In this document: positions 11,522 to 63,139 of the stretch, piece after piece
How positions within the stretch are numbered: the stretch's first letter is position 1
How the letters are laid out: each line of letters begins with the position of its first letter
From: Streptomyces sp. NBC_01465
GTDB taxonomy: Bacteria > Actinomycetota > Actinomycetes > Streptomycetales > Streptomycetaceae
NCBI RefSeq assembly: GCF_036227325.1
Contig: NZ_CP109467.1
Coordinates: forward strand, 7,316,001-7,380,000
Length of the DNA stretch: 64,000 nt
Direction of reading: 5' to 3'
The notes under the pieces: model-generated
Told to the model about the DNA's origin: nothing
The model's database searches: none
What the model saw: the letters and a program-made list of their open reading frames with translations, nothing else
Program-made: the position numbers and the translations under genes

Positions 11522-11546
11522 ATGTGCGCGTGAATGCGCGGGCACG

Positions 11547-11580
11547 AAAAGAACGGCGGCCCGGAGGCCGCCGTCCTTTT
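11547..11580. terminator. Bidirectional intrinsic terminator
   Basis: A hairpin with a 15-base arm on each side (11547-11561 and 11566-11580), one mismatch and a CGGA loop. It is flanked by an A-run on the left and a T-run on the right, so it can stop transcription from the transketolase gene and from the leftward small membrane protein gene. Confidence 0.85.
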
Positions 11581-11591
11581 CCCCTCATTCA

Positions 11592-11762
11592 CTACCACCT
11601 GTACCAGCGCGACCGCGCCCCTGAATGCGAAGTGCTCCGCATCAGGAACCCCAGCAGCCAGATGACCAGCACGGCTATCGCAACCCACCAGAGAATTTTC
11701 ACGGCGAATCCGGCACCGAAAAGCAGCAGTGCAAGAAGCAGAACAAGCAGTACGGGAACCAT
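11592..11762 (-). CDS. Small hydrophobic membrane protein
   Basis: A 56-residue protein, MVPVLLVLLLALLLFGAG at the N-terminus, then a second hydrophobic stretch (WWVAIAVLVIWLLGFLM) and a basic tail. ATG 11762 is chosen because an AGGAGG lies eight bases upstream; the longer frame from 11783 lacks one. It resembles the two-segment hydrophobic proteins widespread in actinobacteria and often linked with stress or stationary phase. No catalytic residues are present and no function is assigned. Confidence 0.75.
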   Translation of the reverse strand: MVPVLLVLLLALLLFGAGFAVKILWWVAIAVLVIWLLGFLMRSTSHSGARSRWYRW

Positions 11763-11823
11763 AGTCTGTACCTCCTTGGTCAAACGGGTGCCCTCAATTC
11801 GTCCTCATACACTGTGAGTTGAT

Positions 11824-33331: not shown

Positions 33332-33352
33332 CTTGGCAGCTACGTTGCTAAG
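33332..33352 (+). promoter_or_regulatory. Operator site C, candidate GntR site before GH116
   Basis: A 21-base near-palindrome with halves CTTGGCAGC and GTTGCTAAG, one of four related sites in the window (ideal CTTAGCAGC-N3-GCTGCTAAG). A TTGCGT lies at 33323-33328, and the right half provides a TGCTAA-like -10, so binding should occlude the GH116 promoter. Confidence 0.65.
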
Positions 33353-33433
33353 GCTCTGTACAGGCAGACCAGACGTCGCTATACCCGTCTCTCGGAACCT
33401 AGTCACCCGATGAATCCGAGAGAGGTGGAGACC

Positions 33434-36400
33434 GTGACACGACGTACGCGGCCGCGCCGTGCGGCAGCGGCAGCCGCGCTGACCGGGCTGATCGTCACCG
33501 GAGCCCTCACCGGCGCCGGTGCCGCGCCCGCAGGCGCGGCGGAAGACACGGCGGAGGACACGGCGTTCACGCAGGGCTTCGAATCGGGCGCACTGCCCGA
33601 CGGCTGGCGCATCACCGAAGGGTCGTTCGGGCAACTCGTCACCGACAGGGCCCAGTTCCACAACAGCGCGACGCCCTACCTCCGCGAAGGCAACTGGCAC
33701 CTCTCCACCCTGGAGACCCCCACCCAGACCCCCAGCGACGGCTACCGGGGCACCGTCGTCTCGCCCGCCTTCACCCTCACCCGGCCCACCGTGACCATGC
33801 TGGTCGGCGGCGGCTCGTCGGCCACGACCTATGTGGCGCTGTGCGCGTACGACGCAGCCGCGGCGGACGGCTGCGGACACGAGATCGCCCAGGCGCACGG
33901 CGCCAACTCCGAGGTCATGCAGTACCGCACGCTCGACGGCACCTCCGCCGTCGGCCGACAGGTCGTACTGAAGGTCGTCGACCACTCCACCGGCAGCTGG
34001 GGCCACGTCACCCTCGACGACATCCGCGCCAATGTTCCCCCTGCGGCCACCGCGCCCCGGGTGGACCGTACGAAGACGGCCGTGCACCTGACCTGGACCG
34101 CCGCCCCCGACCCGACGGTCACCGGTTACGCCGTCTACCGCTCCACGCAGCAGAGTTCGGGCTATACCCGGCTGGGCACGGCCACCTCGGCCACGTACAG
34201 CGACAGCACCGCGGGCGCCACCGGTACGTACTTCTACCGGATCGCCGCCGTCGACGCGGGCGGCGCCGAGTCCGAGCCCGTCACCACCCTCGCCCGCCCC
34301 TACACCGATCTGCGGGCGAAGGGCTCACCCGTCACCTACGAGGGCGACACGCTCAGCGACACCCGCTTCGCGGTCGGCCCGCTCGGTTCCGCCGGCATCG
34401 TGCAGGACGGCACCGGCGCCCGCCCCACCTGGTGGATCTTCAACAACATCGGGCAGCTCGCCTCCGGTGGCTGGCAGAACACCCCCGACACCTACACCAA
34501 GGGCAAGGTGCCCAACAGTTTCTTCGCCGTACGGGCCCAGCAGGACGGCGGGCAGCCCGTCGTCCGTGCGCTGCAGACCACCGGCGTCGGCGCGTTCCCG
34601 GCGATGAAGTCGCTGAAGTTCCAGGGCGAGTACCCGCTCGCCGACTACGCCTTCCAGGACGACCAGCTCCCCGTCCAGGTCTCCGAGAACGTCCTCAACC
34701 CGATGATCCCCGGAGACACCAAGGACTCCGCGATCCCCACCGCGATGTACCGCTTCACCCTGAAGAACCCGTCGGACAAGCCGGTCACCGTCTCCCTGCT
34801 CGCCTCGCAGCAGAACGCGGTCGGCTTCAGCGGCTACGACACCATCGGCGGCGCCGACGACCGGGTGGTCGCCGGGTACGGCGGCAACCACACCGAAGTC
34901 GCCTCCACCACCGGGGCGAAGCCCGCCACGAGCCTGCGGATGTCGGGTGCCACCGGCGCCGGCACCATGAACCTCACGGCGTACGGCGACGACATCTCGG
35001 CCAGCTCCTCCTGGGACACCCTGAGCACGCTCAAGGACGACCTCGCCGCCGACGGCGAACTGTCCGGCCCCGCCACCGCGGACAGCCCGGCCGCGCAGAC
35101 CACCGTCGACGGGGCGCTGTCCGTCAAGGTCACCCTCGCACCGGGCGCGTCCAGGACCGTCCCGGTCAACCTCAACTGGCACTTCCCCGGCGCCAAGAAC
35201 CCCAACGGGGGCGACGGCCGCCAGTACGAGAACTGGTGGACCGGCGCGGACGACGTCGCGGACTACGTCACCGCCCACTACGACCAACTGCTGGGCGACA
35301 CCACCGCCTACCACGACTCCCTCTACAACACGAACATGCCCCGGTATCTGATCGACCGGGTCTCCGCCGCCACCGCCGTCCTCCACTCACCCTCCGTCTG
35401 GTGGGCCAGGAACGGCTTCTTCGGCGCCCGCGAAGGCTGGGGCTGCTGCCCGGGCATGCCCACCCATGTCTTCCACTACGCCCAGGCACAGGCCTGGCTC
35501 TGGCCGGAGGTCGGCCGGCGCTGGACCCAGCAGTGGCTCGACAACACCGACACCGCGGGCAAGATCCCGATGCGCTTCAGCGGCGACAGCAGCTTCACCA
35601 TGGACGGCCAGACCGGCGTGATCCTCTCCGCGTACCGCACCTACGAGACGACCGACAAGGCCTGGCTGGACGCCAACTGGCCCACGGTCAAACGCGCCAT
35701 GGACTACGTGGTGAACCTCGGCGACCAGGACCACGACGGCATCCTCACCGGCTCCTTCAACACCACCCTGGACGGCGGCGAGACCGGCAACGGCTCCTGG
35801 CTCGGCTCCCTGTACCTCGCCTCGGTCCACGCCTCCCAGAAGATGGCGGAGGCCGAGGGCGACACCGCGACCGCCGCCCTCTACTCCTCGATCTACGAGA
35901 AGGGCCGGGTCACCGGCGAGAAGGACTACTTCAACGGCGAGTACTACACGGAGATCAACAACGGCACCGGCGCCTCCTACGGCAACGGCTCCGAGATCGA
36001 CATGCTGCTCGGCCAGTGGTGGTCGACCCAGCTCGGCCTCGGCGACATCTACGACACCGCGCACATGAACACCGCGGCGAAGAACCTCTTCACCGACAAC
36101 TACCGGGACAACCTCCTGGGCGACACCCCCTACTCCGGGTACAACTACGCCCACCAGTTCCGCCAGTACGCCCTTGAAACCGACGGCGGACTGCAGATGA
36201 CGACCTGGCCGCACCACGACCAGCCCTCCAACACCCCGCTCTACTACGATGAGTTGATGTCGGGCTTCGAGTACTCGGCGGCCTCCCTGATGCTCCAGCG
36301 CGGTCAGGTCGACGAGGGCCTCAAGGTCGTCAAGGCGGTCTCCGACCGCTACAACGGCGTGGCGCGCAAGGGCCCGTACATCAACATGAGCACCTGCTCC

Positions 36401-36844
36401 ACAGGCGACGGCACCGGCAGCCCCTTCGGGGACGACGAGTGCGGCAAGTACTACGGGCGCACCCTCTCCTCGTACTCGCTGCTCACCGCGCTCCAGGGCT
36501 TCAGTTGGAACGCGCCGGAGGGGGCCATGGCCTTCAACCCGACCTGGCAGCCCGAGAACCACAAGTCATTCTTCTCCACCGGCGACGCCTGGGGCACCTT
36601 CACCCAGAAGCGCACCGGCGGCAAGCAGACCGACACCCTCCAGGTCAGGCACGGCAGCCTTGACGTGCGCACCCTCACCCTCAAGGTGCCCGAGGTCAAG
36701 GGCACGCTCACACTCAAGGGTGTCGGCAGCAAGGGCCCCCTCCAGGGCGCGCAGTTGAAGCGTGACGGCGACACGGTCACCGTCACGCTCGCTGCGGCAC
36801 ACACCTTCGCGAAGGGGGAGAAGCTGACCGTCACGCTCGGCTGA
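33434..36844 (+). CDS. Secreted GH116-type beta-glucosidase with N-terminal Fn3 module
   Basis: An exported enzyme of about 1136 residues. GTG 33434 follows AGAGGTGG closely and starts a classic signal peptide (TRRTRPRRAAAAAALTGL to about AGAA); ATG 33410 is an alternative. A beta-sandwich binding domain covers about 40-190, and a fibronectin type III domain about 200-285 (HLTWTAAPDPTVTGYAVYRS). The GBA2-like N-terminal domain is about 290-580, and the GH116 alpha/alpha barrel about 620-1030 (CCPGMPTHVFHYAQAQAWLWPE, DHDGILTGSF, NGSEIDMLLGQWW). GH116 removes beta-linked glucose or related sugars. Operator C precedes it. Confidence 0.82.
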   Translation: MTRRTRPRRAAAAAALTGLIVTGALTGAGAAPAGAAEDTAEDTAFTQGFESGALPDGWRITEGSFGQLVTDRAQFHNSATPYLREGNWHLSTLETPTQTPSDGYRGTVVSPAFTLTRPTVTMLVGGGSSATTYVALCAYDAAAADGCGHEIAQAHGANSEVMQYRTLDGTSAVGRQVVLKVVDHSTGSWGHVTLDDIRANVPPAATAPRVDRTKTAVHLTWTAAPDPTVTGYAVYRSTQQSSGYTRLGTATSATYSDSTAGATGTYFYRIAAVDAGGAESEPVTTLARPYTDLRAKGSPVTYEGDTLSDTRFAVGPLGSAGIVQDGTGARPTWWIFNNIGQLASGGWQNTPDTYTKGKVPNSFFAVRAQQDGGQPVVRALQTTGVGAFPAMKSLKFQGEYPLADYAFQDDQLPVQVSENVLNPMIPGDTKDSAIPTAMYRFTLKNPSDKPVTVSLLASQQNAVGFSGYDTIGGADDRVVAGYGGNHTEVASTTGAKPATSLRMSGATGAGTMNLTAYGDDISASSSWDTLSTLKDDLAADGELSGPATADSPAAQTTVDGALSVKVTLAPGASRTVPVNLNWHFPGAKNPNGGDGRQYENWWTGADDVADYVTAHYDQLLGDTTAYHDSLYNTNMPRYLIDRVSAATAVLHSPSVWWARNGFFGAREGWGCCPGMPTHVFHYAQAQAWLWPEVGRRWTQQWLDNTDTAGKIPMRFSGDSSFTMDGQTGVILSAYRTYETTDKAWLDANWPTVKRAMDYVVNLGDQDHDGILTGSFNTTLDGGETGNGSWLGSLYLASVHASQKMAEAEGDTATAALYSSIYEKGRVTGEKDYFNGEYYTEINNGTGASYGNGSEIDMLLGQWWSTQLGLGDIYDTAHMNTAAKNLFTDNYRDNLLGDTPYSGYNYAHQFRQYALETDGGLQMTTWPHHDQPSNTPLYYDELMSGFEYSAASLMLQRGQVDEGLKVVKAVSDRYNGVARKGPYINMSTCSTGDGTGSPFGDDECGKYYGRTLSSYSLLTALQGFSWNAPEGAMAFNPTWQPENHKSFFSTGDAWGTFTQKRTGGKQTDTLQVRHGSLDVRTLTLKVPEVKGTLTLKGVGSKGPLQGAQLKRDGDTVTVTLAAAHTFAKGEKLTVTLG

Positions 36845-37733
36845 GCGGGGGCAGGCGTCCGCCGAACTCGTCCATGAAGCGGTCCACCATGGCGAGTTCG
36901 GCGGCGTCCAGCGTCCAGCCGGGCGCCCTGCAGTGCGCCGAGGCGAACCAGCCGCGGCGCACCGAGATCGCCTTCTCCGCGGCCACGATCAGCTCCACGT
37001 GCTGCATCCAGTACGAGAGGTACGGCAGCAGCGCGGAGTGCAGGGCGAGGGCGGCCGGCCGGTCGTCCTCGTGCCATGCCCGCCAGATCTCCTGGTACAG
37101 CTCGGTGAACGAGCATCCCGGCTGGACTCCGGCCGCACCGCGCCGGAGCGCGTCGGGCAACTGCAGCCCTGCGTAGCCGACCAGCGCGGGGAGCTCCAGC
37201 GCGCTGATGAGCCGGCCCGGCGGCGCCGACTCCACCTTCACGTAGCCGAGGTTGGGGTGGCGCCCGGCCAGTGCGTGGATCGCGGCCGCGTCCAGGCTCG
37301 TCCCCGTCTGCGCGGGCGCGTACTGCAGGACGACCGGCAGCGGAGCCACCGCGTCCAGTACGGCACCGAGATGGGCCAGCACCGCATCGCGGGAGGGGCC
37401 GAGGAGGTACGGCGGCAGCAGATTGAGGGCGCCCGCGCCTCGTTCCGCGGCCCGCCGGGCCACCTCCACCGCCACCACGGTGGCATGGTCGGGCACCGAG
37501 ACGACGGCGGTGAACCCCGCCACCCCCGCGGTCGCGCCGAGCAGCCGGTCGGTCAGCAACTCCCGCTCCGCGCCGGTGAGTTTGTGGAACTCCGAGGCGT
37601 ACCCGGGAAACATCACCGAACCGACACCCGTGGCGAGCACCGCCTCCACCACCCGGTCGAAGCCGGGCAGATCGAGCGATCCGTCGTCCAGGAAGGGCAC
37701 TTCGAGTACGGGGCTCACTCCGCCGATCGTCAT
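36831..37733 (-). CDS. Dihydrodipicolinate-synthase-family lyase/aldolase
   Basis: A 300-residue TIM-barrel enzyme from ATG 37733, two bases after the dehydratase stop. It retains the Schiff-base lysine (NLGYVKVESAP) and the catalytic Tyr region (PVVLQYAPAQTG). The binding loop reads GYASEFHKLTGAER where lysine-pathway enzymes have GTTGE, so a substrate other than pyruvate plus aspartate semialdehyde is likely. Next to an IlvD/EDD dehydratase, family members split or dehydrate 2-keto-3-deoxy sugar acids. The end overlaps the convergent GH116 gene by 14 bases. Confidence 0.88.
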   Translation of the reverse strand: MTIGGVSPVLEVPFLDDGSLDLPGFDRVVEAVLATGVGSVMFPGYASEFHKLTGAERELLTDRLLGATAGVAGFTAVVSVPDHATVVAVEVARRAAERGAGALNLLPPYLLGPSRDAVLAHLGAVLDAVAPLPVVLQYAPAQTGTSLDAAAIHALAGRHPNLGYVKVESAPPGRLISALELPALVGYAGLQLPDALRRGAAGVQPGCSFTELYQEIWRAWHEDDRPAALALHSALLPYLSYWMQHVELIVAAEKAISVRRGWFASAHCRAPGWTLDAAELAMVDRFMDEFGGRLPPLSRA

Positions 37734-37735
37734 GG

Positions 37736-39466
37736 TCAGAACGCCTTTCGCGGTACGTCGCTGCCGCTGGACCCGACCAGGAAGTCCAGGTCGCACCCCC
37801 GGTCCGCCTGGAGCACATGCTCGACATGGAGCCGGGTGAATCCGCGCCCCGCGCCCTTCGGCGGCGGCGGAGCGGTCCATTGCGCCCGCCGGGCCTCCAG
37901 CACCTCCGGCCCGACCAGCAGATCGAGCCGGCGCGCGGGGACGTCGAGGAGGATCCGGTCGCCGGTCCGCACCAGCGCGAGCGGCCCGCCGACGGCCGAC
38001 TCCGGGGCCACGTGCAGGATGCAGGTCCCGTACGCCGTCCCGCTCATCCGCGCATCGCTGATCCGCACCATGTCGGTGACCCCGGCCTCCAGAAGCCTGC
38101 GGGGGAGCGGGAGATTGCCCGCCTCCGGCATCCCCGGATAGCCGCGCGGGCCCATGCCCCGTACGACCAGGACGGTGTCGGCGGTGACCTCGAGCTCCGG
38201 GTCGTCCGCCGCGGCCGTGTACTCCTCCAGCGAGTCGAAGACCAGCGCGGGCCCCTCGTGGACCAGCAACTCCTCTGCCGCGGCGGACTGTTTGACGACC
38301 GCCCCGCCGGGCGCGAGGGTGCCGCGCAGCACGGCGATTCCGCTGCCCGCGGCCTGCACGGGGTCGTCCACCGTACGGATCACGGCCGCGTCGTACACCT
38401 CGGCGTCCTTGCACTCCACGGTCAGCGGGCGCCCGGTGACGGTGAGCGGCGTCGGATGCAGCAGTTCGCGGATCCGGGTGACCAGTGCGGGCACCCCGCC
38501 CGCGTACGCGAACTCCTCCATCAGGAAGCGGCCGCTGGGCATCAGGTCGACCAGCAGCGGAACGCGGCGTGCGATGCGGTCGAAGTCGTCCAGTTCCAGG
38601 GGTACTTCGGCCCGGCCCGCGATGGCCAGCAGATGCAGCACGGCATTGGTGGAGCCGCCGATCGCCGCATTGACGACGATGGCGTTCTCGAAGGCCTCCC
38701 GGGTCAGGATCCGCCCCGGCGTGAGCCCCTCGCGGGCCAGCTCGACGGCCCGCGCACCGGTCTCCTCGGCCAGTACGGTGCGTCGCGCGTCGACGGCGGG
38801 CAGGGCCGCGCCGCCCGGCAGCATCATGCCGAGCGCCTCCGCGAGACAGGCCATGGTGGAGGCGGTGCCCATGGTCATGCAGTGCCCGGCCGAGCGGTTG
38901 AGGCAGGACTCGAAGTCGGTGAACTCCCGCTCGCCGATCCGCCCGGCCCGCAACTCCTCGCTCATCCGCCAGATGTCGGTCCCCGAGCCGACCGCCGTGC
39001 CCTTGAAGCGGCCGTTGAGCATCGGCCCGCCCGTCAGCACGATCGAGGGAAGATCGGCGCTCGCCGCGCCCATGATCGCCGCCGGGGTGGTCTTGTCACA
39101 GCCCGTCAGGAGCACGGCGGCGTCCAGGGGGTTGGCGCGCAGCGCCTCCTCGACGTCGATCGCCATCAGATTGCGGTACATCATCGAGGACGGCCGCAGA
39201 AAGGGCTCGCCCGGCGAGAACACCGGGAATTCCAGGGGCAGTCCGCCCGCCCGCAGGATGCCGCGCCTGACCGCGTCCGCCAGACCCGTCAAGTGCCGGT
39301 TGCAGGGCGTGAGATCGGACGCGGACTGGCAGATGCCGACGACCGGCTGCCCGTCGAACGCCCAGGAACCGAGGCCGGTGGCCCGCAGATGGTGCCGGGC
39401 TATGAACCCGTTCTTGATGTCCCCGCCGAACCACTCGCGGCTGCGCAGATTCTTGTCGATGTCCAC
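37736..39466 (-). CDS. IlvD/EDD-family sugar-acid dehydratase
   Basis: A 576-residue iron-sulfur dehydratase. Cluster cysteines are visible in TPCNRHLTGL, LLTGCDKTTPAAIMG and RSAGHCMTMGTASTM; the substrate and magnesium region includes GSGTDIWRM. The length and SREWFGG start match the arabonate/xylonate/fuconate dehydratase group more than the branched-chain amino-acid enzyme. It starts at GTG 39466 with no clear ribosome site, only TAAGTT 7-12 bases upstream, so the mRNA may be leaderless. It is the first gene of a two-gene unit with the aldolase-like gene, behind operator A. Confidence 0.9.
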   Translation of the reverse strand: MDIDKNLRSREWFGGDIKNGFIARHHLRATGLGSWAFDGQPVVGICQSASDLTPCNRHLTGLADAVRRGILRAGGLPLEFPVFSPGEPFLRPSSMMYRNLMAIDVEEALRANPLDAAVLLTGCDKTTPAAIMGAASADLPSIVLTGGPMLNGRFKGTAVGSGTDIWRMSEELRAGRIGEREFTDFESCLNRSAGHCMTMGTASTMACLAEALGMMLPGGAALPAVDARRTVLAEETGARAVELAREGLTPGRILTREAFENAIVVNAAIGGSTNAVLHLLAIAGRAEVPLELDDFDRIARRVPLLVDLMPSGRFLMEEFAYAGGVPALVTRIRELLHPTPLTVTGRPLTVECKDAEVYDAAVIRTVDDPVQAAGSGIAVLRGTLAPGGAVVKQSAAAEELLVHEGPALVFDSLEEYTAAADDPELEVTADTVLVVRGMGPRGYPGMPEAGNLPLPRRLLEAGVTDMVRISDARMSGTAYGTCILHVAPESAVGGPLALVRTGDRILLDVPARRLDLLVGPEVLEARRAQWTAPPPPKGAGRGFTRLHVEHVLQADRGCDLDFLVGSSGSDVPRKAF

Positions 39467-39474
39467 CTCGGCAA

Positions 39475-39495
39475 CTTAGCAGCTAGGCTGCATAG
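39475..39495 (-). promoter_or_regulatory. Operator site A, before the dehydratase operon
   Basis: Halves CTTAGCAGC and GCTGCATAG around a TAG centre on the plus strand. Read leftward, the CTTAGC end gives GCTAAGTT, a -10-like element ending seven bases from the GTG start of the dehydratase. This is the best-matching of four sites and fits direct repression. Confidence 0.72.
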
Positions 39496-39525
39496 CGGTC
39501 ACAACTTTGGAGAGATCTCTCGTCG

Positions 39526-39546
39526 GGTAGCTGCTTATCTGTTAAG
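39526..39546 (+). promoter_or_regulatory. Operator site B, before GH101
   Basis: A more diverged copy (GGTAGCTGC and TCTGTTAAG halves). Its final TTAAG plus T is the -10-like element, seven bases from the GH101 ATG. The spacing from TAAGT to the start codon equals that of site A on the other strand, although the two genes are unrelated. Confidence 0.6.
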
Positions 39547-39554
39547 TACGTGGC

Positions 39555-42500
39555 ATGCATAGATTCCCTCGCGCAGGCATGCTCCTGGCGGCAACTCTGG
39601 CGCTGTCGCCGGTCGTTGTGCCCCAGGCCGCCACGGCGGCCGAGACCCCGACGGGTCCCCTCGTCATCGGCTCCGGTGCACTTCAGGTGCGTACCGGAGT
39701 CGACTTCCCGTACGTCGTCGACTACCAGGACCGCGCCACCGGCGCCGTCGTCGACGGCCGGAGCACCCCGCTCCACACCGTCGTCCTCAACGGAAAGCCC
39801 TACCAGGCGGACGGGAAGGCGACAGTCCACGGATCCACCGTCACCTACCGGCTGACCTTCCCCGGCCTCGACGGCGTACGGATCGACGCACAGCTCGGCG
39901 TCAGCGGCACCCAAGTCACCTTCCGCATCACGAAGATCACCGACACCGACGCCTTCCGCATCGGCACCATCGACATCCCCGGACAGAACCTGCTGTCCGT
40001 ACGCGGCGACCAGCCCGGCGCCCATGTCACCGCAGCCCGCGTCGACCCCGACAAGAACGGCCACGGCGACACGTTCACCGCCGTCACCGACGACACCCCC
40101 GCCGACGCGGCGCCGCAGGGATCGGCGTACGCCATCGTCAACACCGACCAGCTGGCGGCCGCGATCGAGACCAACTCCGTACAGGACACGGCCAGCAGCG
40201 AGAACACCCGCGTCCAGCGCCAGGCCGTGAAGACCGGCTCCACCACCGAGGTCGGCGTCTCCAGCGGCCAGTGGACCTACCGCGCCAAGGGCTCACCCTT
40301 CACCGAGGAACTCCCCTGGGCGAAGGTCGTGATCACCGGCGACCGCAACACCGACCACAAGGTCGACTGGCAGGACGGCGCCATCGCCTTCCGCTCCATC
40401 GGCGTCAAGGCCAAGGGCGCCGACGAGACCCCGGACCGCGTGATCGCCCACATCCCCTTCAACTTCGCCAGCTACGCGAGCAACCCCTTTCTGAAGACCC
40501 TCGACAACGTCAAACGCATCTCGCTGTCCACCGACGGCCTCGGCCAGCTCGCCATCCTCAAGGGGTACGCACAGGAGGGCCACGATTCCGCCCACCCCGA
40601 CTACGGCGGCAACTACAACACCCGCGCCGGCGGCCTCGCCGACCTCAACGCCCTGGCGAAGGAGGGCAAGAAGTGGGGCGCCTCCTTCGGCGTCCACGTC
40701 AATACGACCGAGGCGTACCCCGAGGCGAAGAACTTCAGCGACACCCTCGTCGACCCCAAGGCGAAGGGCTGGGACTGGCTCGGCCAGTCGTACTACATCG
40801 ACCAGCGCCGCGACCTGACCAGCGGCGATGTCGCCAAGCGCTTCCAACAGCTGCGCGACGAGACCGACCCCAACCTCAAGTTCCTCTACATCGACGTCTA
40901 CTACTCCCACGGCTGGGTGTCGGACCGGCTGCAGAGCGAACTCCGCAAGCAGGGCTGGGAGATCGGCACCGAGTGGGGCGACAAGATGGAGCGCTCCTCC
41001 CTCTGGTCGCACTGGGCGAACGAGCCGAGCTACGGCGGCGACGCCAACCGCGGCATCAACTCCCAGGTCATCCGTTTCATCCGCAACGGCGAGAAGGACG
41101 TCTGGATCGACAACCCGCTGCTGGGCTCCGCCAACATCAAGGAGTGGGAGGGCTGGGGCGGTCAGAGTGACTGGACGAAGTTCTACGCGAACATCTGGAA
41201 CCGCAACCTGCCCGCCAAGTTCCTCCAGAAGCAGCGGATCACCGAGTGGACCGACCACGAGGTGAAGCTCACCGGAGGCGTCCGCGTCAGCGATGCGACC
41301 GGCACCCGCCAGGTCTACGTCGGCGACGACAAGGTCCAGGACGGCGGCGCCTACCTCCTGCCCTGGGACGGCGACAAGGCCTACCACTGGAACCCGGCGG
41401 GCGGCACGACCACGTGGCCCGTACCCGCGCAGTGGAAGCACGAGCAGTCGGTCACCCTCTACCGGCTCACCGACCAGGGCAAGGTGAAGGTCGCCACGCT
41501 CCCGGTGCAGGACGGCAAGGTCGCGCTCACCGCCGACAAGGGCGTCGCGTACGTCCTCTACCGCGACCGGGCGAAGAAGACCCCGGCCCCCGCCTTCGGC
41601 CAGGGCTCCCACGTCACGGACCCCGGCTTCGACTCCGGCACCCTGAACGCCTGGAAGACCGACGGCACGGCATCGGTCCAGCGCAATGCCGCAGGCCAGT
41701 ACGAGGCCGTGATCCCCGCCTCCACCACTGCGACCACTCTCGCCACCTCCCTCAACGGCCTGACCCCCGGCACGCGTTACGCCGCATCCGTCTGGGCGCA
41801 GGTGCAGCCGGGGAAGACCCGCAAGGTCACCCTCACGGCGGGCGGCGCCGACAACTGGATCGACCGCTCGACCGCCAAGGACGCCTTCGCCTACGACGAC
41901 AAGGCCGGTACGTACTTCCAGCGGATCACCGTCCGCTTCACCGCCACCGCCAGGACCGCACGGCTCGTGGTCGCGGCGGATCCGGGTGACGCCCAGGTGA
42001 AACTGGACGACGTCCGGGTCGTCGCCACCACCAAGACGGAGCAGCAGGGCACCGTCGCCCACTGGGACTTCGAGGACAACGAACAGGGCTGGGGCCCCTT
42101 CGTCGAGACGGAGCCCGGCGGCCCGAGGACCGTACGCTCCGAGAAGCACGCCCCGTACACCCAGTCCGGCTGGAACGGGAATCTCACCGACCAGGTCCTG
42201 GACGGCAGTTGGTCGCTGAAGTCCCACGAGGAGGACCCGGCACTGCTCTACCGGACCGTGCCGCAGACCGTGCGGTTCCAGCCCGGCCACCGCTACAAGG
42301 TGTCCTTCGACTACCAGAACGCCTTCGCCGGCCAGTACGCCCTCTCCACCGGATACGACCGGGTCACCGCAAGCGGCTCGACGACTACGGAGACCGACCG
42401 GCAGCTCTTCGGGCAGCAGCGCACCACCGCCCGCTTCGACCACGAGTTCACCGCCGGGGACTGCGGCGACTCCTACGTGGGCCTGCGCAAGGTCGGATCG

Positions 42501-43340
42501 GGCGCCGACCAGTCCGACTTCGTCATGGACGACTTCACCGTGACCGACCTCGGCGCCACCGACGAGGCCACCCCCTGCGCGACGCTCGCCGTCGCACCCA
42601 GGGCGGGCAAGCTCGTCCCCGGCGGCGCCAACGACATCAACGTCACCTTCACCAACAGCGAGCGCACCGCGGCCACCGGCGTACGGACCGCACTGACCGT
42701 CCCCGTCGGCTGGACCGCCGCGCCGGCGACCACCGACACGCTCACCACCGTCGCCCCGGGTGCCTCGGGCACGGTGGTCTGGAAGGTCACCCCGCCCGCA
42801 GGCATCCCGGCGGGCACCTTCACCCTGAACGCGAGGGCCGACTACACGGCCGGCACCAAGCAGGTCTCGCTCACGGCCGCCGTCCAGGTCGCCACCGTGC
42901 CGCCGGACTATCTCCCGCAGGACCGGATCAGCATCGTCGACTTCGACAGCCAGGAGACGGAGGGGGAGAACACCCCGGCGGCCAACGCCCTCGACGGAGA
43001 CCCGGCCACCTGGTGGGGCAGCGCCTGGTCGTCGACGACCGCGCCCTTCCCGCACCACATCACGCTGGACCTCGGGGCCTCGTACCACCTCAAGGAGTTC
43101 AAGTACCTGCCCCGGCAGAACCAGGCCAACGACCGGATCAAGGACTACGAGGTCTACCTCTCGTCCGACGGCGTCACCTGGGGGCAGCCGGCTGCCAAGG
43201 GCAGCTGGCCCAACAGCACGGACGAGCAGACCGTCGCGCTGGGCGGGCAGAGCGCCAGGTACATCAAGCTGGTCGGCCTCAACTCGGTGAACGGGCAGCC
43301 GTACGGTGGTGCGGCGGAGCTCAATGTCCTGACGCAGTAG
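39555..43340 (+). CDS. Secreted GH101 endo-alpha-N-acetylgalactosaminidase-like enzyme
   Basis: A 1261-residue exported protein. The signal peptide is MHRFPRAGMLLAATLALS to about TAAE. A galactose-mutarotase-like N-domain covers about 35-280 and the GH101 barrel about 290-590. Candidate catalytic residues are Asp447 in KFLYIDVYYSHGW and Glu473 in IGTEWGDKME, placed as in known GH101 enzymes. Later modules are two jelly-roll regions (about 690-1010), a NEW3-type domain (about 1020-1110) and a C-terminal discoidin/CBM32 domain (about 1130-1260). GH101 frees Gal-beta-1,3-GalNAc from Ser/Thr O-glycans. No ribosome site precedes ATG 39555. Confidence 0.85.
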   Translation: MHRFPRAGMLLAATLALSPVVVPQAATAAETPTGPLVIGSGALQVRTGVDFPYVVDYQDRATGAVVDGRSTPLHTVVLNGKPYQADGKATVHGSTVTYRLTFPGLDGVRIDAQLGVSGTQVTFRITKITDTDAFRIGTIDIPGQNLLSVRGDQPGAHVTAARVDPDKNGHGDTFTAVTDDTPADAAPQGSAYAIVNTDQLAAAIETNSVQDTASSENTRVQRQAVKTGSTTEVGVSSGQWTYRAKGSPFTEELPWAKVVITGDRNTDHKVDWQDGAIAFRSIGVKAKGADETPDRVIAHIPFNFASYASNPFLKTLDNVKRISLSTDGLGQLAILKGYAQEGHDSAHPDYGGNYNTRAGGLADLNALAKEGKKWGASFGVHVNTTEAYPEAKNFSDTLVDPKAKGWDWLGQSYYIDQRRDLTSGDVAKRFQQLRDETDPNLKFLYIDVYYSHGWVSDRLQSELRKQGWEIGTEWGDKMERSSLWSHWANEPSYGGDANRGINSQVIRFIRNGEKDVWIDNPLLGSANIKEWEGWGGQSDWTKFYANIWNRNLPAKFLQKQRITEWTDHEVKLTGGVRVSDATGTRQVYVGDDKVQDGGAYLLPWDGDKAYHWNPAGGTTTWPVPAQWKHEQSVTLYRLTDQGKVKVATLPVQDGKVALTADKGVAYVLYRDRAKKTPAPAFGQGSHVTDPGFDSGTLNAWKTDGTASVQRNAAGQYEAVIPASTTATTLATSLNGLTPGTRYAASVWAQVQPGKTRKVTLTAGGADNWIDRSTAKDAFAYDDKAGTYFQRITVRFTATARTARLVVAADPGDAQVKLDDVRVVATTKTEQQGTVAHWDFEDNEQGWGPFVETEPGGPRTVRSEKHAPYTQSGWNGNLTDQVLDGSWSLKSHEEDPALLYRTVPQTVRFQPGHRYKVSFDYQNAFAGQYALSTGYDRVTASGSTTTETDRQLFGQQRTTARFDHEFTAGDCGDSYVGLRKVGSGADQSDFVMDDFTVTDLGATDEATPCATLAVAPRAGKLVPGGANDINVTFTNSERTAATGVRTALTVPVGWTAAPATTDTLTTVAPGASGTVVWKVTPPAGIPAGTFTLNARADYTAGTKQVSLTAAVQVATVPPDYLPQDRISIVDFDSQETEGENTPAANALDGDPATWWGSAWSSTTAPFPHHITLDLGASYHLKEFKYLPRQNQANDRIKDYEVYLSSDGVTWGQPAAKGSWPNSTDEQTVALGGQSARYIKLVGLNSVNGQPYGGAAELNVLTQ

Positions 43341-43353
43341 GGGAGTTGCAGTA

Positions 43354-43380
43354 CGGCCCTGCCCCCGCCGGGCAGGGCCG
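43354..43380. terminator. Hairpin terminator between GH101 and GntR genes
   Basis: An exact 11-base stem (CGGCCCTGCCC with GGGCAGGGCCG) around a five-base loop, in the gap between two convergent genes. There is no T-run, which is usual for streptomycete terminators, and it can serve both directions. Confidence 0.8.
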
Positions 43381-43385
43381 CGCCG

Positions 43386-44090
43386 TCAGTGGCCCGGCGC
43401 GTGCAGATCCTTCTCCGTCTCCGCAAGGTGTGCGTCCATCGCCGCCGTCGCGCCGTCCGCGTCGCCCGCCCGGACGGCGTCGAGGATCGCGCGGTGGGCG
43501 GCGACGGTCGTCTCGTGGCTGTCGCCGCGCCGGCTGTGGCCCGTGTAGCTGGCGATGCGCTGGTCGCGCAGGACGTCGGAGAGCGAGTCGAGGAGCAGGG
43601 AGAGCATGCCGTTGTCCGCCTGGGCGGCGATCTCGGCGTGGAAGGCGATGTCCAGATCGACGAACCGCTCCCGGTCGTCGGCCGACTCCGCCATCTCCGC
43701 GAGCAGCGCGTCGGCGCCGTCCAGCGAGACCTCGCCCGCGGTGTGCCGGTCGGCGGCGCGGTGGGCCAGGGCGCCCTCGATGGCCCGGCGGGCATCCATC
43801 ACGTCGTCGTAACTCAGCGACTCCTGCCGCAGCCTGAAGCGGAGGATCTGCCCGAACACCTTCGCCGTGGGGACATTGACCCGCGCCGGGCGGCCCTGGC
43901 TGGAGACCAGGATCTCGCGGGCGGACAGGGTACGGATGGCCTCGCGGACCGCCAGCCGGTTGACCTCGAAGCGGGCGGCGAGCTCTCCCTCGGGCGGAAT
44001 CACGTCCCCGGGCTTGAGTCCGGTCTCCTCGATCAGCGCGATGATCTCGTCGGCGACCTGGTCGGCCAGGGTGGTTCGGCGTACGGCCAC
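43386..44090 (-). CDS. GntR regulator, FadR/FCD subfamily
   Basis: A 234-residue repressor-type regulator starting at GTG 44090 behind GAGGAGG. The winged helix covers about residues 5-75 (ARFEVNRLAVREAIRTLSAREIL), and the all-helical FCD ligand domain about 95-225, with metal-binding residues D-x-x-FH (VDLDIAFHAEIA) and later AHRAIL. FCD regulators in this setting usually sense a sugar acid. A matching 21-base palindrome lies in its own divergent promoter region and before three nearby transcription units, so I propose it as the local regulator. Confidence 0.9.
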   Translation of the reverse strand: MAVRRTTLADQVADEIIALIEETGLKPGDVIPPEGELAARFEVNRLAVREAIRTLSAREILVSSQGRPARVNVPTAKVFGQILRFRLRQESLSYDDVMDARRAIEGALAHRAADRHTAGEVSLDGADALLAEMAESADDRERFVDLDIAFHAEIAAQADNGMLSLLLDSLSDVLRDQRIASYTGHSRRGDSHETTVAAHRAILDAVRAGDADGATAAMDAHLAETEKDLHAPGH

Positions 44091-44108
44091 GGTCGGCCTC
44101 CTCGACTA

Positions 44109-44129
44109 CTGGGCAGCTAGGCTGACAAG
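44109..44129. promoter_or_regulatory. Operator site D between GntR and SDR genes
   Basis: Halves CTGGGCAGC and GCTGACAAG around TAG. It lies 18 bases before the GntR start and 52 bases before the SDR start, so one site could control both, including autoregulation. Confidence 0.68.
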
Positions 44130-44181: not shown

Positions 44182-44949
44182 ATGGGTCGGTTGGCCGACA
44201 AGGTGGTCCTGGTGACCGGGGGAGCACGCGGCATCGGGCGGGCGATCGCGGAGACCGCGGCGCGCGAGGGCGCGACCGTCGTGGTGTTCGACCTGGACGC
44301 GCAGGCGGGCACCGAGGTGCGCGACGCGCTGGCCGCGGCGGGAGCGCCCGGTCTCGTACGGCAGGTGGACGTCACCGACAGCGCGGCCGTCGCTGCGGCG
44401 ACGGACGAGGCGGTCACGGCGTACGGCGGGATCGACGTGCTGGTCAACAACGCGGGCCGCAATGTCTACGCGGACCCCGTCGTGATGACCGAGGCCGAGT
44501 GGGACCAGGTCTTCGACGTGGACCTCAAGGCCGCGTTCCTCTGCTCGAAGCACACCCTGCCGTCGATGATCGCGCGCGGACGCGGCGCCATCGTCAACAT
44601 CGCGTCCCTGCACGCACGGCTCACCTGTACGGGCATGTACCCGTACGCCGCCGCGAAGGCCGGCCTCGTCGGCCTCACCCGGTCGATGGCGCTCGACGTC
44701 GCCCGCCACGGGATCCGCGTGAACGCGGTGAGCCCCGGCTACATCCGTACCGCCCTGGTCGACGAGTACTTCGCGCAGCACCCGGACCGCGAGGTGGAGC
44801 CCAAGGCGCTCGACGCCCAGCCGCTGGGACGGTTCGGGACCCCGGAGGAGGTCGCCGAAGTGGTCTGCTTCCTGGCCTCCGACGCCGCCTCGTACGTGAC
44901 CGGCGCCGACTGGGCCATTGACGGAGGGCTCGGCGTGCGCTTCGCATGA
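44182..44949 (+). CDS. Short-chain dehydrogenase/reductase (SDR)
   Basis: A 255-residue classical SDR; ATG 44182 follows GGAAGAGG. NAD(P) binding is VTGGARGIGRA, with Asp37-like FDLDAQ favouring NAD. NNAG is present (VLVNNAGRN). The catalytic region is IVNIASLHARLTCTGMYPYAAAKAG, giving Ser, Tyr and Lys in Y-x-x-x-K. The C-terminus DWAIDGGLGVRFA is canonical. Beside the sugar-acid dehydratase operon and under the same operator family, a sugar 1-dehydrogenase role is plausible. Confidence 0.9.
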   Translation: MGRLADKVVLVTGGARGIGRAIAETAAREGATVVVFDLDAQAGTEVRDALAAAGAPGLVRQVDVTDSAAVAAATDEAVTAYGGIDVLVNNAGRNVYADPVVMTEAEWDQVFDVDLKAAFLCSKHTLPSMIARGRGAIVNIASLHARLTCTGMYPYAAAKAGLVGLTRSMALDVARHGIRVNAVSPGYIRTALVDEYFAQHPDREVEPKALDAQPLGRFGTPEEVAEVVCFLASDAASYVTGADWAIDGGLGVRFA

Positions 44950-45049: not shown

Positions 45050-46447
45050 ATGGCCATCGCTACGGTCAACCCCGCGAACGGCGAGACACTGCTGACCTTC
45101 GACGCGCTGGGGCCCGAGGAGATCGAGCAGCGGCTCGCCTCCGCGGCCGCGGCCTTCCGCACCTATCGCAACACCGCCTTCGAGGAGCGGGCGCGTCTCC
45201 TGGAGCGCGCCGCGGACCTCCTCGACGAGGACCGGGACGAGATCGCCCGCACCATGACCACCGAAATGGGCAAGCCCCTGGCGGCGGCCCGTGCGGAGGC
45301 GGCGAAGTGCGCGAAGGCCATGCGCTGGTACGCGCGCCATGCCGAGGAGCTCCTCGCGGACGAGCTGCCCTCGAAGGCCGACGTGAAGGACTCCGGCGCC
45401 GCCCGCGCCTACACCCGCTACCGGCCGCTCGGTGTGGTGCTGGCCGTGATGCCGTGGAACTTCCCGCTCTGGCAGGTCGTACGGTTCGCGGCCCCCGCCC
45501 TGATGGCCGGCAACGTCGGCCTGCTCAAGCACGCGTCGAACGTCCCCCAGACCGCCCTCTACCTGGAAGGACTCTTCCGCCGGGCCGGATTCCCCGACGG
45601 CTGCTTCCAGACGCTGCTGATCGGCTCCGGCGCCGTCGAGGCGGTCCTGCGCGACCCCCGGGTGGCCGCCGCGACCCTCACCGGCAGCGAGCGCGCCGGG
45701 CGGGCGGTCGCCGCGATCGCCGGGGACGAGGTGAAGCGGACCGTCCTGGAGCTGGGCGGCAGCGACCCCTATGTCGTGATGGCCTCCGCCGACGTCGAGA
45801 AGGCCGCGGACATCGCGGTCACCGCACGGATCCAGAACAACGGTCAGTCGTGCATCGCCGCCAAGCGCTTCATCGTCCACACGGACGTCTACGAAGCGTT
45901 CGTGGAGCGGTTCACCGGCAAGATGGCCGCGCTGACCGTCGGGGACCCGATGGAGGAGGGAACCGACGTCGGCCCGCTCTCCACCGAGCAGGGCCGCGCC
46001 GACCTGGAGGAGCTCGTCGACGACGCCGTACGCCGCGGAGCGACCGTGCTCTGCGGGGCCGAACGGCCCAAGGGGCTCGCCCTGGGCTGGTATTACGCGC
46101 CGACGGTCCTCGCCGGGATCACCCTGGACATGCGCATCCACCACGAGGAGACCTTCGGGCCCGTGGCGACGGTCTACCGCGTCGGCAGCATCGACGAGGC
46201 GGTCGTGGTCGCCAACGACACGCCTTTCGGGCTGAGTTCGAACGTCTGGACCCGCGACGAGGCGGAGACGGAGCGCTTCGTACGGGACCTCGACGCAGGG
46301 GGCGTATTCTTCAATGGCATGACCGCCTCCCACCCCGCGCTCCCCTTCGGCGGCACGAAGCGTTCCGGATACGGCCGCGAGCTCGCCGCCCACGGAATCC
46401 GCGAGTTCTGCAACATCACCACCGTCTGGCACGGCGCCGGCAACTGA
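45050..46447 (+). CDS. Aldehyde dehydrogenase, succinate-semialdehyde-dehydrogenase-like
   Basis: A 465-residue enzyme from ATG 45050, preceded by GCGAGGAGGAG. Key elements are MPWNFPLWQV, the NAD(P) loop LTGSERAGRA, catalytic Glu in VLELGGSDPYVV, catalytic Cys in NNGQSCIAAKRF and HHEETFGPVATVYR. It belongs near NADP-dependent succinate or 2-ketoglutarate semialdehyde dehydrogenases. It lies 100 bases after the SDR and may be co-transcribed. In a Weimberg-type route it would make 2-ketoglutarate; that is inference. Confidence 0.9.
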   Translation: MAIATVNPANGETLLTFDALGPEEIEQRLASAAAAFRTYRNTAFEERARLLERAADLLDEDRDEIARTMTTEMGKPLAAARAEAAKCAKAMRWYARHAEELLADELPSKADVKDSGAARAYTRYRPLGVVLAVMPWNFPLWQVVRFAAPALMAGNVGLLKHASNVPQTALYLEGLFRRAGFPDGCFQTLLIGSGAVEAVLRDPRVAAATLTGSERAGRAVAAIAGDEVKRTVLELGGSDPYVVMASADVEKAADIAVTARIQNNGQSCIAAKRFIVHTDVYEAFVERFTGKMAALTVGDPMEEGTDVGPLSTEQGRADLEELVDDAVRRGATVLCGAERPKGLALGWYYAPTVLAGITLDMRIHHEETFGPVATVYRVGSIDEAVVVANDTPFGLSSNVWTRDEAETERFVRDLDAGGVFFNGMTASHPALPFGGTKRSGYGRELAAHGIREFCNITTVWHGAGN

Positions 46448-60761: not shown

Positions 60762-60983
60762 ATGAAGAGACTGACGGCCGTCCTCGGACTGGCCCTCGCG
60801 CTGATGCTCGGCATCTGGCAGCCGTCCGTGAGCGCCGCGCCGGCGCCGGACACCGCCGACTGGGACACCTGGGCCACCAGGACCTTCACCGTCCCGCTCG
60901 ACGCCGGGTCCAACACCGTGCGCCTGACGGCGACCACAGCGAACGGCGCCCCGAACCTGGACTGCCTGGACGGTCCGGCATGA
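60762..60983 (+). pseudogene. Remnant: signal peptide joined to the end of a CBM35
   Basis: A 73-codon frame: MKRLTAVLGLALALMLG is a signal peptide, and after APAPD the sequence is TADWDTWATRTFTVPLDAG and GAPNLDCLDGPA, matching only the last 40 residues of the CBM35 in the preceding gene. A catalytic domain and most of the binding module seem to have been deleted in frame. The ribosome site and ATGA overlap with the next gene persist, so it may still serve translation coupling. Confidence 0.75.
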
Positions 60984-63139
60984 GGCGCCACGGGCGACTC
61001 CTCGCCCTGATCGCGCTCCTCCTCGGCACCCTCCTCCTGCCCACCCCCGCCCGTGCCGACCTCCAGAACCCGCGCCAGGACTTCCTCCGGGCCTCCACCG
61101 GCGGACTCTTCCTGCACTGGGGCGAGCGCACCTCGCCCCAGCACACCAGCTGCAGCGGCTGGGAGAGCGATGTGACCAACGGCGGCTGGACCCCGGACTA
61201 CTGGGTCAACGAGGCCCAGAAGCTCCACGTCCAGTACCTGGTCCTGGCCACCTTCCACAGCCGGCTCGGCTACGCCCGCCCCTGGCCGTCCGCCATCCCC
61301 GGCAGCTGCTCCACCCAACGGGACTTCCTCGGCGAGCTGATCACGGCAGCCAAGGCCAAGGGCCTGAAGACGATCCTCTACATGACCGACGACCCGCAGT
61401 GGCACGCGGACGGCGGGCACGAGTGGCTGGACTCGGCCGCGTACTCCTCGTACAAGGGCAAGAGCGTCGACCTGACGACCCGCGACGGATTCGGCGAGTT
61501 CAGCTACGACAACTTCTTCGAGGTCATGGACCGCTACCCCGACCTCGGTGGCTTCTGGATCGACAACGACAACGCGTACTGGGAGTCCCACAACCTCTAC
61601 GCCCAGATCCAGCAGAAGCGCCCCTCGTACACGCTCAGCAACAACAACGAGGACACGCCGATCATGGACATGATCAGCAATGAGCAGAAGGCCGGAATGG
61701 CCCCGGCCTACGACTACCCGCAGGCGGTCTACACCGCTCAACCCCGCCTGACCGAGGCCGACTTCAAGCTGCCCTCGACCGGCGCCTGGTGGTACGACGG
61801 CTCGGACCCGTCCGTCGACAAGATGCTGACGCTCGGCCGACTCGTCACCAACGCCGGCTCCTCCGTGAAGGCGCTGATAGCCGAGACCGCGATGGTCAAC
61901 GGCAGGTTCCCGCCCCAGCAGGAAGCCTTCAACACCTTCGCCAACGGCTATCTGAACCCCATCTGGGAGTCGCTGAACGGCACCGAGGGCGGCGGCTACA
62001 TGTACGGCGGCCTCAAACCCGGGTTCTGGAACGACGGCGCCCACGGCGTCACCACCATCAGCAGGACCGATCCCGACCGCCAGTACGTCCACGTCCTGAC
62101 CCCGCCCACCACCAGCACCCTGCGCATCCGCGACAACGGATACCGGATCTCCGCCGTGAGCAATCTGCGCACCGGCGCCCCGGTCTCCTTCAGCCAGTCC
62201 GGCGGAGTGCTCACGCTCAACGGACTCGGCGGCTGGGACCCGTACGACACCGTGTTCAAGGTGACGACGTCAGGACGCCAGGGAATCCTGCCCGCCTCCT
62301 CGTACACGATGAGCGCGAGCGCGTCGGCGAGCGGACACGGGGCCGCGGCCGCCGCGGACGGCAGCTGGACGACGTACTGGGACAGCAACAAGACGCTGCC
62401 CGTCACGCTCACGTACGACCTCGGGTCGGTGAAGCCGGTCCAGTACATCGGCCTCAACCAGCGCGAGGACTCCGTCTCCTACGCCCGCTCCGACACCGAG
62501 CAGTCCGCCCGCATCAAGGACTACAAAGTCTTCCTCAGCAACAACGGCACCACCTGGGGAAGTGCGGTGAAGTCCGGGCAGATGGCGAGCCGCCGCGGCA
62601 TCCAGGGCATCGACCTGACCGCCGCGAACGCCCGCTACGTCCGTCTGGAAGTGGACACCACCTGGGCCGCGTCGACCGACACCACCCGCTACCAGCGGCT
62701 GCGCATCGACGAGTCCTGGATCGGCACCTCCTACGCGACGCCGGCCACCGGGACACCGCCCGTACGGTACGAGGCGGAGGATGCGGTGATCTCGTCCGGC
62801 ACCGTGGCGACGAACCACCTGGGCTACACCGGCACCGGCTTCGTGGACACCACCAACGCGGTCGGAACCTCCGTGCAGTGGAACGTGCACGCGGCCGCCG
62901 CAGGCACTGCGAACCTCACCTTCCGCTACTCCAACGGCACCACCGCCGACCGCCCGATGGACATCACCGTCGACGGAGCGGTCGTGGCGAGCGCCAAGTC
63001 CTTCCCGCCGACCGGCAGTTGGGACAGCTGGGCCGATGTGGCGGTCGCCGTCCCGCTTGCCGCGGGCGCGCACTCCGTCGTGACGACCGCGACCACCGCC
63101 GGTGGCGCGCCGAACCTCGACCACCTGGATGTGGGGTGA
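60980..63139 (+). CDS. Secreted GH29-like enzyme with discoidin and CBM35 modules
   Basis: A 719-residue exported protein. The signal peptide is RRHGRLLALIALLLGTLLL to about ARA. The GH29-like barrel is at about 30-380: GGLFLHWGERTS, WTPDYWVNEAQKLHVQYLVL, ILYMTDDPQWH and the likely nucleophile Asp in GGFWIDNDNAYWE. A discoidin (F5/8-type) module is at about 430-590 and a CBM35 about 595-719 (YEAEDAVISSGTVATNHLGY). GH29 contains alpha-L-fucosidases; this is a distant member, so the linkage is uncertain. It starts within the stop of the remnant gene. Confidence 0.78.
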   Translation: MRRHGRLLALIALLLGTLLLPTPARADLQNPRQDFLRASTGGLFLHWGERTSPQHTSCSGWESDVTNGGWTPDYWVNEAQKLHVQYLVLATFHSRLGYARPWPSAIPGSCSTQRDFLGELITAAKAKGLKTILYMTDDPQWHADGGHEWLDSAAYSSYKGKSVDLTTRDGFGEFSYDNFFEVMDRYPDLGGFWIDNDNAYWESHNLYAQIQQKRPSYTLSNNNEDTPIMDMISNEQKAGMAPAYDYPQAVYTAQPRLTEADFKLPSTGAWWYDGSDPSVDKMLTLGRLVTNAGSSVKALIAETAMVNGRFPPQQEAFNTFANGYLNPIWESLNGTEGGGYMYGGLKPGFWNDGAHGVTTISRTDPDRQYVHVLTPPTTSTLRIRDNGYRISAVSNLRTGAPVSFSQSGGVLTLNGLGGWDPYDTVFKVTTSGRQGILPASSYTMSASASASGHGAAAAADGSWTTYWDSNKTLPVTLTYDLGSVKPVQYIGLNQREDSVSYARSDTEQSARIKDYKVFLSNNGTTWGSAVKSGQMASRRGIQGIDLTAANARYVRLEVDTTWAASTDTTRYQRLRIDESWIGTSYATPATGTPPVRYEAEDAVISSGTVATNHLGYTGTGFVDTTNAVGTSVQWNVHAAAAGTANLTFRYSNGTTADRPMDITVDGAVVASAKSFPPTGSWDSWADVAVAVPLAAGAHSVVTTATTAGGAPNLDHLDVG

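Follow-up and report, generated by a model that had tools for sequence, protein, structure and literature searches.

A probable conserved operator of paralogous GntR/FCD regulators that would couple glycan hydrolysis to oxidative sugar-acid catabolism in Streptomyces sp. NBC_01465

Enzymes that attack glycans and enzymes that oxidise sugars appear to share a single operator in Streptomyces sp. NBC_01465. We analysed a 64,000-nucleotide stretch of this genome (the window; bases 7316001-7380000 of the single 9.14-Mb contig NZ_CP109467.1), in which copies of a 21-bp palindrome, with the consensus CTTRGCAGCTWAGCTGCYAAG, stand before genes for glycoside hydrolases (GH), for sugar-acid enzymes and for GntR1, a regulator of the GntR/FCD (FadR-type) class. 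The same element flanks the gene of a paralogue, GntR2, at a second locus, and it accompanies this regulator subfamily in other genomes. Taken together, these findings make it probable, in our judgement, that the element is a conserved GntR/FCD operator of ancient paralogues that couples glycan hydrolysis to oxidative sugar-acid catabolism. Literature searches in open-licence PMC full texts brought up no paper that by title or abstract deals with this operator or regulon, and none on the regulator subfamily.

Operator sites in the window

The original prediction had placed four gapless 21-bp palindromes before GH116, the IlvD dehydratase/DHDPS genes, GH101 and a divergent GntR/short-chain dehydrogenase (SDR) pair, and all four were found where it had put them. 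Two are good copies: the site at 33332..33352, located 81 bp before the GH116 start (2 mismatches, matrix score 29.2), and the site at 39475..39495, located 8 bp before the first possible start of the IlvD/DHDPS genes (2 mismatches, score 22.8). The other two, at 39526..39546, 8 bp before the GH101 start (5 mismatches, score 19.1), and at 44109..44129, within the divergent GntR1/SDR promoter (4 mismatches, score 19.8), are degenerate. Mismatches were counted over the 18 fixed positions of the consensus, and sites carry no strand. The further claim that the 64 kb hold no other copy was right for independent sites, the next of which scores 9.1, and missed an overlapping copy at 39467..39487 (5 mismatches, score 20.0), which is shifted by 8 bp and adds a third half-site.

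Scores were obtained with a symmetric matrix built from 11 training sites, all outside the window, in the second locus of the same genome and in five loci of relatives; the set holds neither window sites nor sites of the window's 91% orthologue (GntR1 of the window and its S. beijiangensis counterpart share 91% identity). The five best positions of the window were the four predicted sites and the 39467 copy. When the window was imitated by 60 first-order Markov copies, scores peaked at 15.05; second-order Markov sequence totalling 199.6 Mb held 2 positions with scores of at least 19 (about 1 per 100 Mb); and, for each of the five sites, 0 of 20000 own-base shuffles reached the score of the site. 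A pattern search of the window at ≤3 mismatches recovered only the copies at 33332 and 39475, with 0 matches in 100 shuffles.

Comparison of the region upstream of GH101 with that of a distant relative (genome G166, locus L020; G and L are our handles for genomes and loci) revealed the degenerate operator at 39526 as the sole long conserved block, 8 bp from the start codon in both. Both the GH101 and the GntR/SDR sites were conserved while their flanks had diverged. The site at 39475..39495 is kept in L025, at 16630, and the counterpart of the 44109 site, before the SDR gene, scores 32.3 in L021 and 35.5 in L042. The IlvD and GH101 operators (39475-39546) lie 51 bp apart, centre to centre, in the window and likewise in L025; this spacing is close to five helical turns, and cooperative binding or a small loop would be possible.

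The consensus was derived from 27 distinct operators, a set that includes near-orthologues and does not amount to 27 independent events. Its core is CAGC-N3-GCTG, and information is about 0.2 bit immediately beyond the 21-bp element. Copies overlapping at an 8-bp shift were seen in the window (39467), in L020, L042, L045 and L046 and twice in L025, a pattern that suggests three half-sites, at which binding might be cooperative. In five loci the distance between the site and the GH2 start codon, by our own start calls, is 11-12 bp, and the element falls inside the promoter of the GntR gene itself in the window and in L008, L022, L023, L025 and L043. The window sites look regulatory, which supports the original prediction, and they track the GntR subfamily across genomes; we regard the 21-bp element as almost certainly a functional operator.

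It had also been reasoned that FadR/FCD-type regulators bind such palindromes, a view that holds in part. The domains are present, whereas the core differs from the published FadR-subfamily consensus, TKGT-N3-ACMA, which is usual without being defining, NanR and BioR being exceptions (PMC4494728; this and the other papers are cited from partial text). Both are odd-centred palindromes that keep a G three bases from the centre; the element described here has GC-N3-GC instead of GT-N3-AC, with C and A outside in place of T and K. Two candidate signatures in the regulator were considered. The first, on which we place no reliance, would explain the unusual operator by an Arg-to-Gly change at helix-turn-helix position 28, Arg28 having been tied to a G/C pair (PMC4494728): the aligned residue of DgoR, which belongs among the FadR-type regulators with GT-N3-AC sites (PMC4494728), is also other than Arg, and Ala or Ser occupies the position in G476, G544, G584 and P0016. 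The second, Val for Ala in the recognition helix as the mark of a different operator, is rejected because L045 and L046 have Val with the same operator.

A second locus with the same operator

The idea that the palindromes define a local regulon did not hold, since the best copy of the genome in the pattern search lies 1.4 Mb from the window, beside GntR2. At ≤3 mismatches the genome matches in seven places: the window has two of them, the stretch at 8.7735-8.7763 Mb has three, and the others lie elsewhere. With five of the seven in two loci, and the backwards control pattern matching at 4 places, the random genome-wide rate that would have refuted the original prediction was not seen at this threshold. 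The two places outside these loci (3 mismatches, in L009 and L010) were set aside at matrix scores of 15.5 and 10.8, and five extra places from a 16-mer search (L048-L052; best scores 4.7-15.2) were taken as chance, the control pattern giving 15 and 10 matches in that search against 9 and 8 for the real one. The matrix scan of the neighbouring stretches L034, L035 and L047 found no site above 9.4.

In addition to GntR2, the second locus (L008) carries genes for an SDR, a DHDPS and an IlvD dehydratase, for parts of a sugar ABC transporter, and for a KDPG-type aldolase and a PfkB kinase. It also encodes a GH2 of 1242 aa that, among solved structures, comes closest to beta-galactosidases. One site stands before GH2, one before the aldolase/kinase genes and two between GntR2 and IlvD, one of these being degenerate. 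Three of the four match at ≤3 mismatches and score 32-35, all of them being training sites; the fourth has 5 mismatches and scores 21.6. Identities between the products of the two loci are 70% for IlvD, 59% for DHDPS, 57% for SDR and 52% for GntR1/GntR2. About 8 kb farther along, at the distal end of the second locus, a third paralogue, GntR3, is encoded (L019:2904-3650).

The GntR/FCD regulators

A single repressor, as originally envisaged, gives way to three related GntR/FCD proteins. GntR1 (43386..44090, minus strand), GntR2 and GntR3 all have the FadR/FCD architecture, with a PF00392 winged helix and PF07729 above cut-off, and the regulator passes no NCBIfam equivalog cut-off. The recognition-helix segment VNRLAVREAI is identical in GntR1 and GntR2, both of which are flanked by the operator, and reads VNRLVIREAI in GntR3. 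Among 64 homologues (E ≤ 1e-30), the segment is exact in 42, has near variants in 14 and was missed by the motif search in 8. A tree of 25 hand-picked sequences set the GntR1 clade, which includes genomes of another family, apart from all others (GntR2 and GntR3 included) at a support of 1.000, and G000 and G166 carry members of both clades. Binding of the element by this GntR subfamily is very likely, and a shared operator for GntR1 and GntR2 is probable.

All 25 aligned members retain equivalents of Arg101 and of the GntR1 metal residues D147, H151, H199 and H221 of the FCD domain, and 23 of the 25 retain that of Thr195. The E. coli D-galactonate repressor DgoR (PMC7674646; PDB 7c7e) is alike in being an FCD-type GntR with a metal-centred pocket and in controlling an aldonate pathway, the pathway here being predicted. 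The third His, H221, is a feature of this subfamily; the aligned DgoR residue is Ile. Two of the six DgoR galactonate-pocket residues that could be mapped are kept, S221 and R224 being outside the alignment or unmapped. A metal-dependent carboxylate effector is likely, because the metal residues are invariant among the aligned members while the galactonate residues are kept at those two positions. We lean towards a sugar acid as the effector; one of the galactonate type is a guess that we hold at somewhat less than even.

Co-occurrence of operator and regulator across genomes

Relatives of GntR1 are rare, occurring in 5 of 199 Streptomyces genomes (E ≤ 1e-30), in 7 of 392 genomes at E ≤ 1e-35, and in 4 of 394 genomes of the class, the present one included. 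A site with ≤2 mismatches was found in 6 of the 199 Streptomyces genomes, namely in 4 of the 5 GntR carriers and in 2 of the 194 others (Fisher p = 1.2e-6). The fifth carrier, G019, has two sites that score 33.8 and 31.6, both in the training set, and the matches of the two non-carriers (G125, G015) have matrix scores of 15.7 and 14.3. The operator is present at the regulator locus itself in 10 of 11 carrier genomes (G000, G019, G161, G166, G179, G276, G308, G313, G544 and G584). Four of them, G308, G313, G544 and G584, were first seen after the matrix had been fixed, and the G276 locus is L025, which had been seen earlier. G544 and G584 are members of another family, and in both the site lies between a row of sulfatase, glycosidase and IlvD genes and a transporter-GntR row (L045, L046).

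Sulfatase genes adjoin the regulator loci of relatives at L045:13829-15409, L046:4603-6162 and 10326-11807, and L021:13542-15029, which suggests sulfated glycans as substrates in some lineages.

Genes adjoining the operator

Two glycosidase genes of the window follow a site directly. GH101, an endo-alpha-N-acetylgalactosaminidase (39555..43340, plus strand), matches PF12905 with 409 bits, and the GH116-like glycosidase (33434..36844, plus strand; PF12215, PF04685) has an N-terminal extension; beta-glucosides as its substrates, part of the original prediction, are a supposition. No GH116-like frame occurs in the initial 12 kb of the G276 contig on which the IlvD/DHDPS side and GH101 lie, and for this reason the well-formed GH116 operator of the window looks like the recruitment of a new regulon member.

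The remaining genes point to the handling of sugar acids. The IlvD/Edd-family sugar-acid dehydratase (37736..39466, minus strand), assigned by Pfam, has L-arabinonate dehydratase (PDB 9evv) among its solved relatives; it passes the NCBIfam cut-offs for two subfamilies that go by the name of dihydroxy-acid dehydratase (PRK06131, PRK13017) and stays below that of the L-arabinonate dehydratase model. Next to it, the DHDPS-family protein (36831..37748, minus strand; PF00701) is a putative 2-keto-3-deoxy sugar-acid aldolase/dehydratase whose nearest PDB entries are L-KDA dehydratase and YagE. The SDR (44182..44949, plus strand), likewise identified by Pfam, is a possible sugar dehydrogenase and exceeds the cut-offs of two NCBIfam subfamily models, glucose 1-dehydrogenase PRK07231 and FabG PRK12826. 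An aldehyde dehydrogenase (ALDH; 45050..46447, plus strand; Pfam) is probably co-transcribed with it, the order of both genes being the same in L025.

In four loci, a family of about 654 aa lies under the same operator (L025:10765-12729, L021:10658-12676, L042:7617-9584 and L054:6509-8884); the window has no member between 43340 and 43386. The L025 and L021 members matched no Pfam family, and the 654-aa protein of L025 had no PDB sequence relative at E ≤ 1. It has 460 homologues (E ≤ 1e-8), the named ones among the 120 matches listed being hypothetical or uncharacterised. In its predicted structure (pLDDT 89.8) it is similar to glycosidases of GH42 and GH164; about equal scores are reached by further folds, of other glycosidases and of related proteins. 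The family may thus constitute an unnamed glycoside hydrolase family; the GH42-like label comes from the modelled fold, and the protein may also belong to an unlisted family.

A fucosidase-like protein is encoded at 60980-63139 of the window, with PF01120 (37 bits), F5/8-type C and CBM35/CBM6 domains; the window scan gave no operator site for it.

Discussion

We propose that the element serves as operator for the GntR/FCD subfamily whose hallmark is the helix VNRL[AV]VREA, the segment that recognises DNA, and that GntR1 and GntR2, possibly also GntR3, would read it, so that the two loci would form one regulon. The bound dimer would probably block transcription, because the sites lie 8-12 bp before the start codons of GH101, IlvD1 and GH2; the step from operator to repression is drawn from this position and from the usual behaviour of the family. 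A sugar acid arising from glycan breakdown would probably occupy the metal-centred pocket of the FCD domain and thereby set the repressor free. Release would induce the glycosidases (GH101, GH116, GH2) and uptake, together with an oxidative route made up of SDR, IlvD dehydratase, DHDPS aldolase and ALDH, or of a KDG-type kinase and a KDPG-type aldolase.

Galactose oxidation of the De Ley-Doudoroff type proceeds through a sugar-1-dehydrogenase, a lactonase, an aldonate dehydratase, a KDGal kinase and a KDPGal aldolase, and an aldonate-type dehydratase, a kinase and an aldolase are present as families. A pathway for a sugar other than D-galactose, be it L-arabinose (a route of the Weimberg type), a 6-deoxy sugar or a sulfated sugar, comes close to an even chance. 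The closest solved relatives of IlvD, which include L-arabinonate dehydratase, and of DHDPS, which is nearest to L-2-keto-3-deoxyarabonate dehydratase, allow L-arabinose, and the sulfatases of L021, L045 and L046 would fit a sulfated sugar. On the other side, the glycosidases point to galactose-containing glycans (GH101, a GH2 near beta-galactosidases, and the GH42-like fold in relatives), and the second locus adds a KDPG-type aldolase and the PfkB kinase, whose best NCBIfam match, below cut-off, is KDG/KDGal kinase.

Alternatively, the two loci might be separate regulons with look-alike operators, GntR1 acting on the window only and GntR2 on the 8.77 Mb locus only, with differences in flanking bases, local concentration or effector keeping them apart. 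A separate regulator is encoded at each locus, the winged-helix regions of GntR1 and GntR2 are identical at just 46 of 75 positions, and the window sites score 19-29 against 32-35 for the three second-locus sites that served for training. We nevertheless consider this arrangement unlikely: the helix segment is the same in both proteins, core bases of the sites of the two clades are alike by eye, with no formal test, and G000 and G166 hold both clades with one operator.

Binding by a regulator encoded elsewhere, the GntR genes being mere neighbours, is very improbable. It would accommodate the operator sites at the G166 locus L033, about 40 kb from its GntR gene, and the fact that GntR binding of the element is a prediction; it is at odds with the distribution among Streptomyces genomes, with the sites inside GntR promoters at six loci and with the site upstream of the transporter-GntR row in a different family. 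That chance and selection by eye produced the four window sites, as the 4-5 mismatches in two of them might suggest, is refuted by their recovery with a matrix trained outside the window, by the rarity of such scores in Markov sequence and by the conservation of these same two sites against diverged flanks.

Several observations weigh against the proposed regulon. The 11 training sites had originally been spotted with the consensus of the original prediction, and to that extent discovery was not fully independent. In a consensus-free palindrome scan of 16 promoter regions picked for holding sites, the top palindrome overlapped the element in 9, and a different palindrome came out on top in 7 (window GntR/SDR; L008 GH2 and aldolase; L020 GH101; L021; L023 GH2; L024 GH2). 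The backwards control pattern matches 15 of the 199 Streptomyces genomes at ≤2 mismatches, which makes isolated matches uninformative. The GntR match of G019 is partial (residues 1-135), the regulator locus of the carrier G476 (L044) yielded no operator site, and upstream of GntR3 there is just one weak site, scoring 12.0. As for DgoR, hand mapping finds equivalents of R102 and T191 kept and those of Q173, R179, W181 and D184 lost. On the enzyme side, the kinase and aldolases pass no NCBIfam equivalog cut-off, ALDH clears the cut-off of PRK09406, the model for NADP-dependent succinic semialdehyde dehydrogenase, an activity that the proposed pathway does not contain, and no lactonase was found among the proteins scanned, a scan that covered part of the open reading frames. 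The sites, their conservation, their occurrence together with the regulator and the paralogy were observed directly; binding, repression, effector and pathway are predictions.

The system resembles known ones in part. The best NCBIfam match of both GntR1 (122.8 bits) and GntR2 (124.3 bits) is E. coli NanR, and both scores fall far below the model's cut-off of 260 bits. The binding site of NanR is a (GGTATA)3 repeat, and its N-terminus is extended by 32 residues (PMC8012715); repeated half-sites are common to both, some operators here overlapping at the 8-bp shift, whereas the half-sites here are inverted and the proteins begin close to the winged helix. Sharing of targets by paralogous GntR proteins is already known from Corynebacterium glutamicum, where GntR1 and GntR2 were shown experimentally to act on the same promoters and to respond to gluconate (PMC2230225). 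Like those, the present proteins would be GntR paralogues of one actinobacterium acting on shared targets, with a sugar-acid response that is inferred here. The differences lie in the glycosidase targets, in the effector and in a redundancy deduced from operator and helix.

A broader formulation, to which we give even odds, is that a hitherto undescribed, off-consensus operator code (VNRL[AV]VREA with CAGC-N3-GCTG) belongs to the whole subfamily and that paralogues have preserved it since a split older than the genus. As many as three repressors of one genome would then read one set of sites and couple the attack on mucin-like glycans or galactans, in relatives with the help of the unnamed GH42-like family, to oxidative sugar-acid catabolism. 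The findings provide a testable operator for a GntR subfamily, through which its targets can be traced, among them a glycosidase-like family that has no Pfam name. They also offer a natural case in which paralogous repressors of about half identity have retained one operator, which bears on whether duplicated regulators stay redundant or turn combinatorial.

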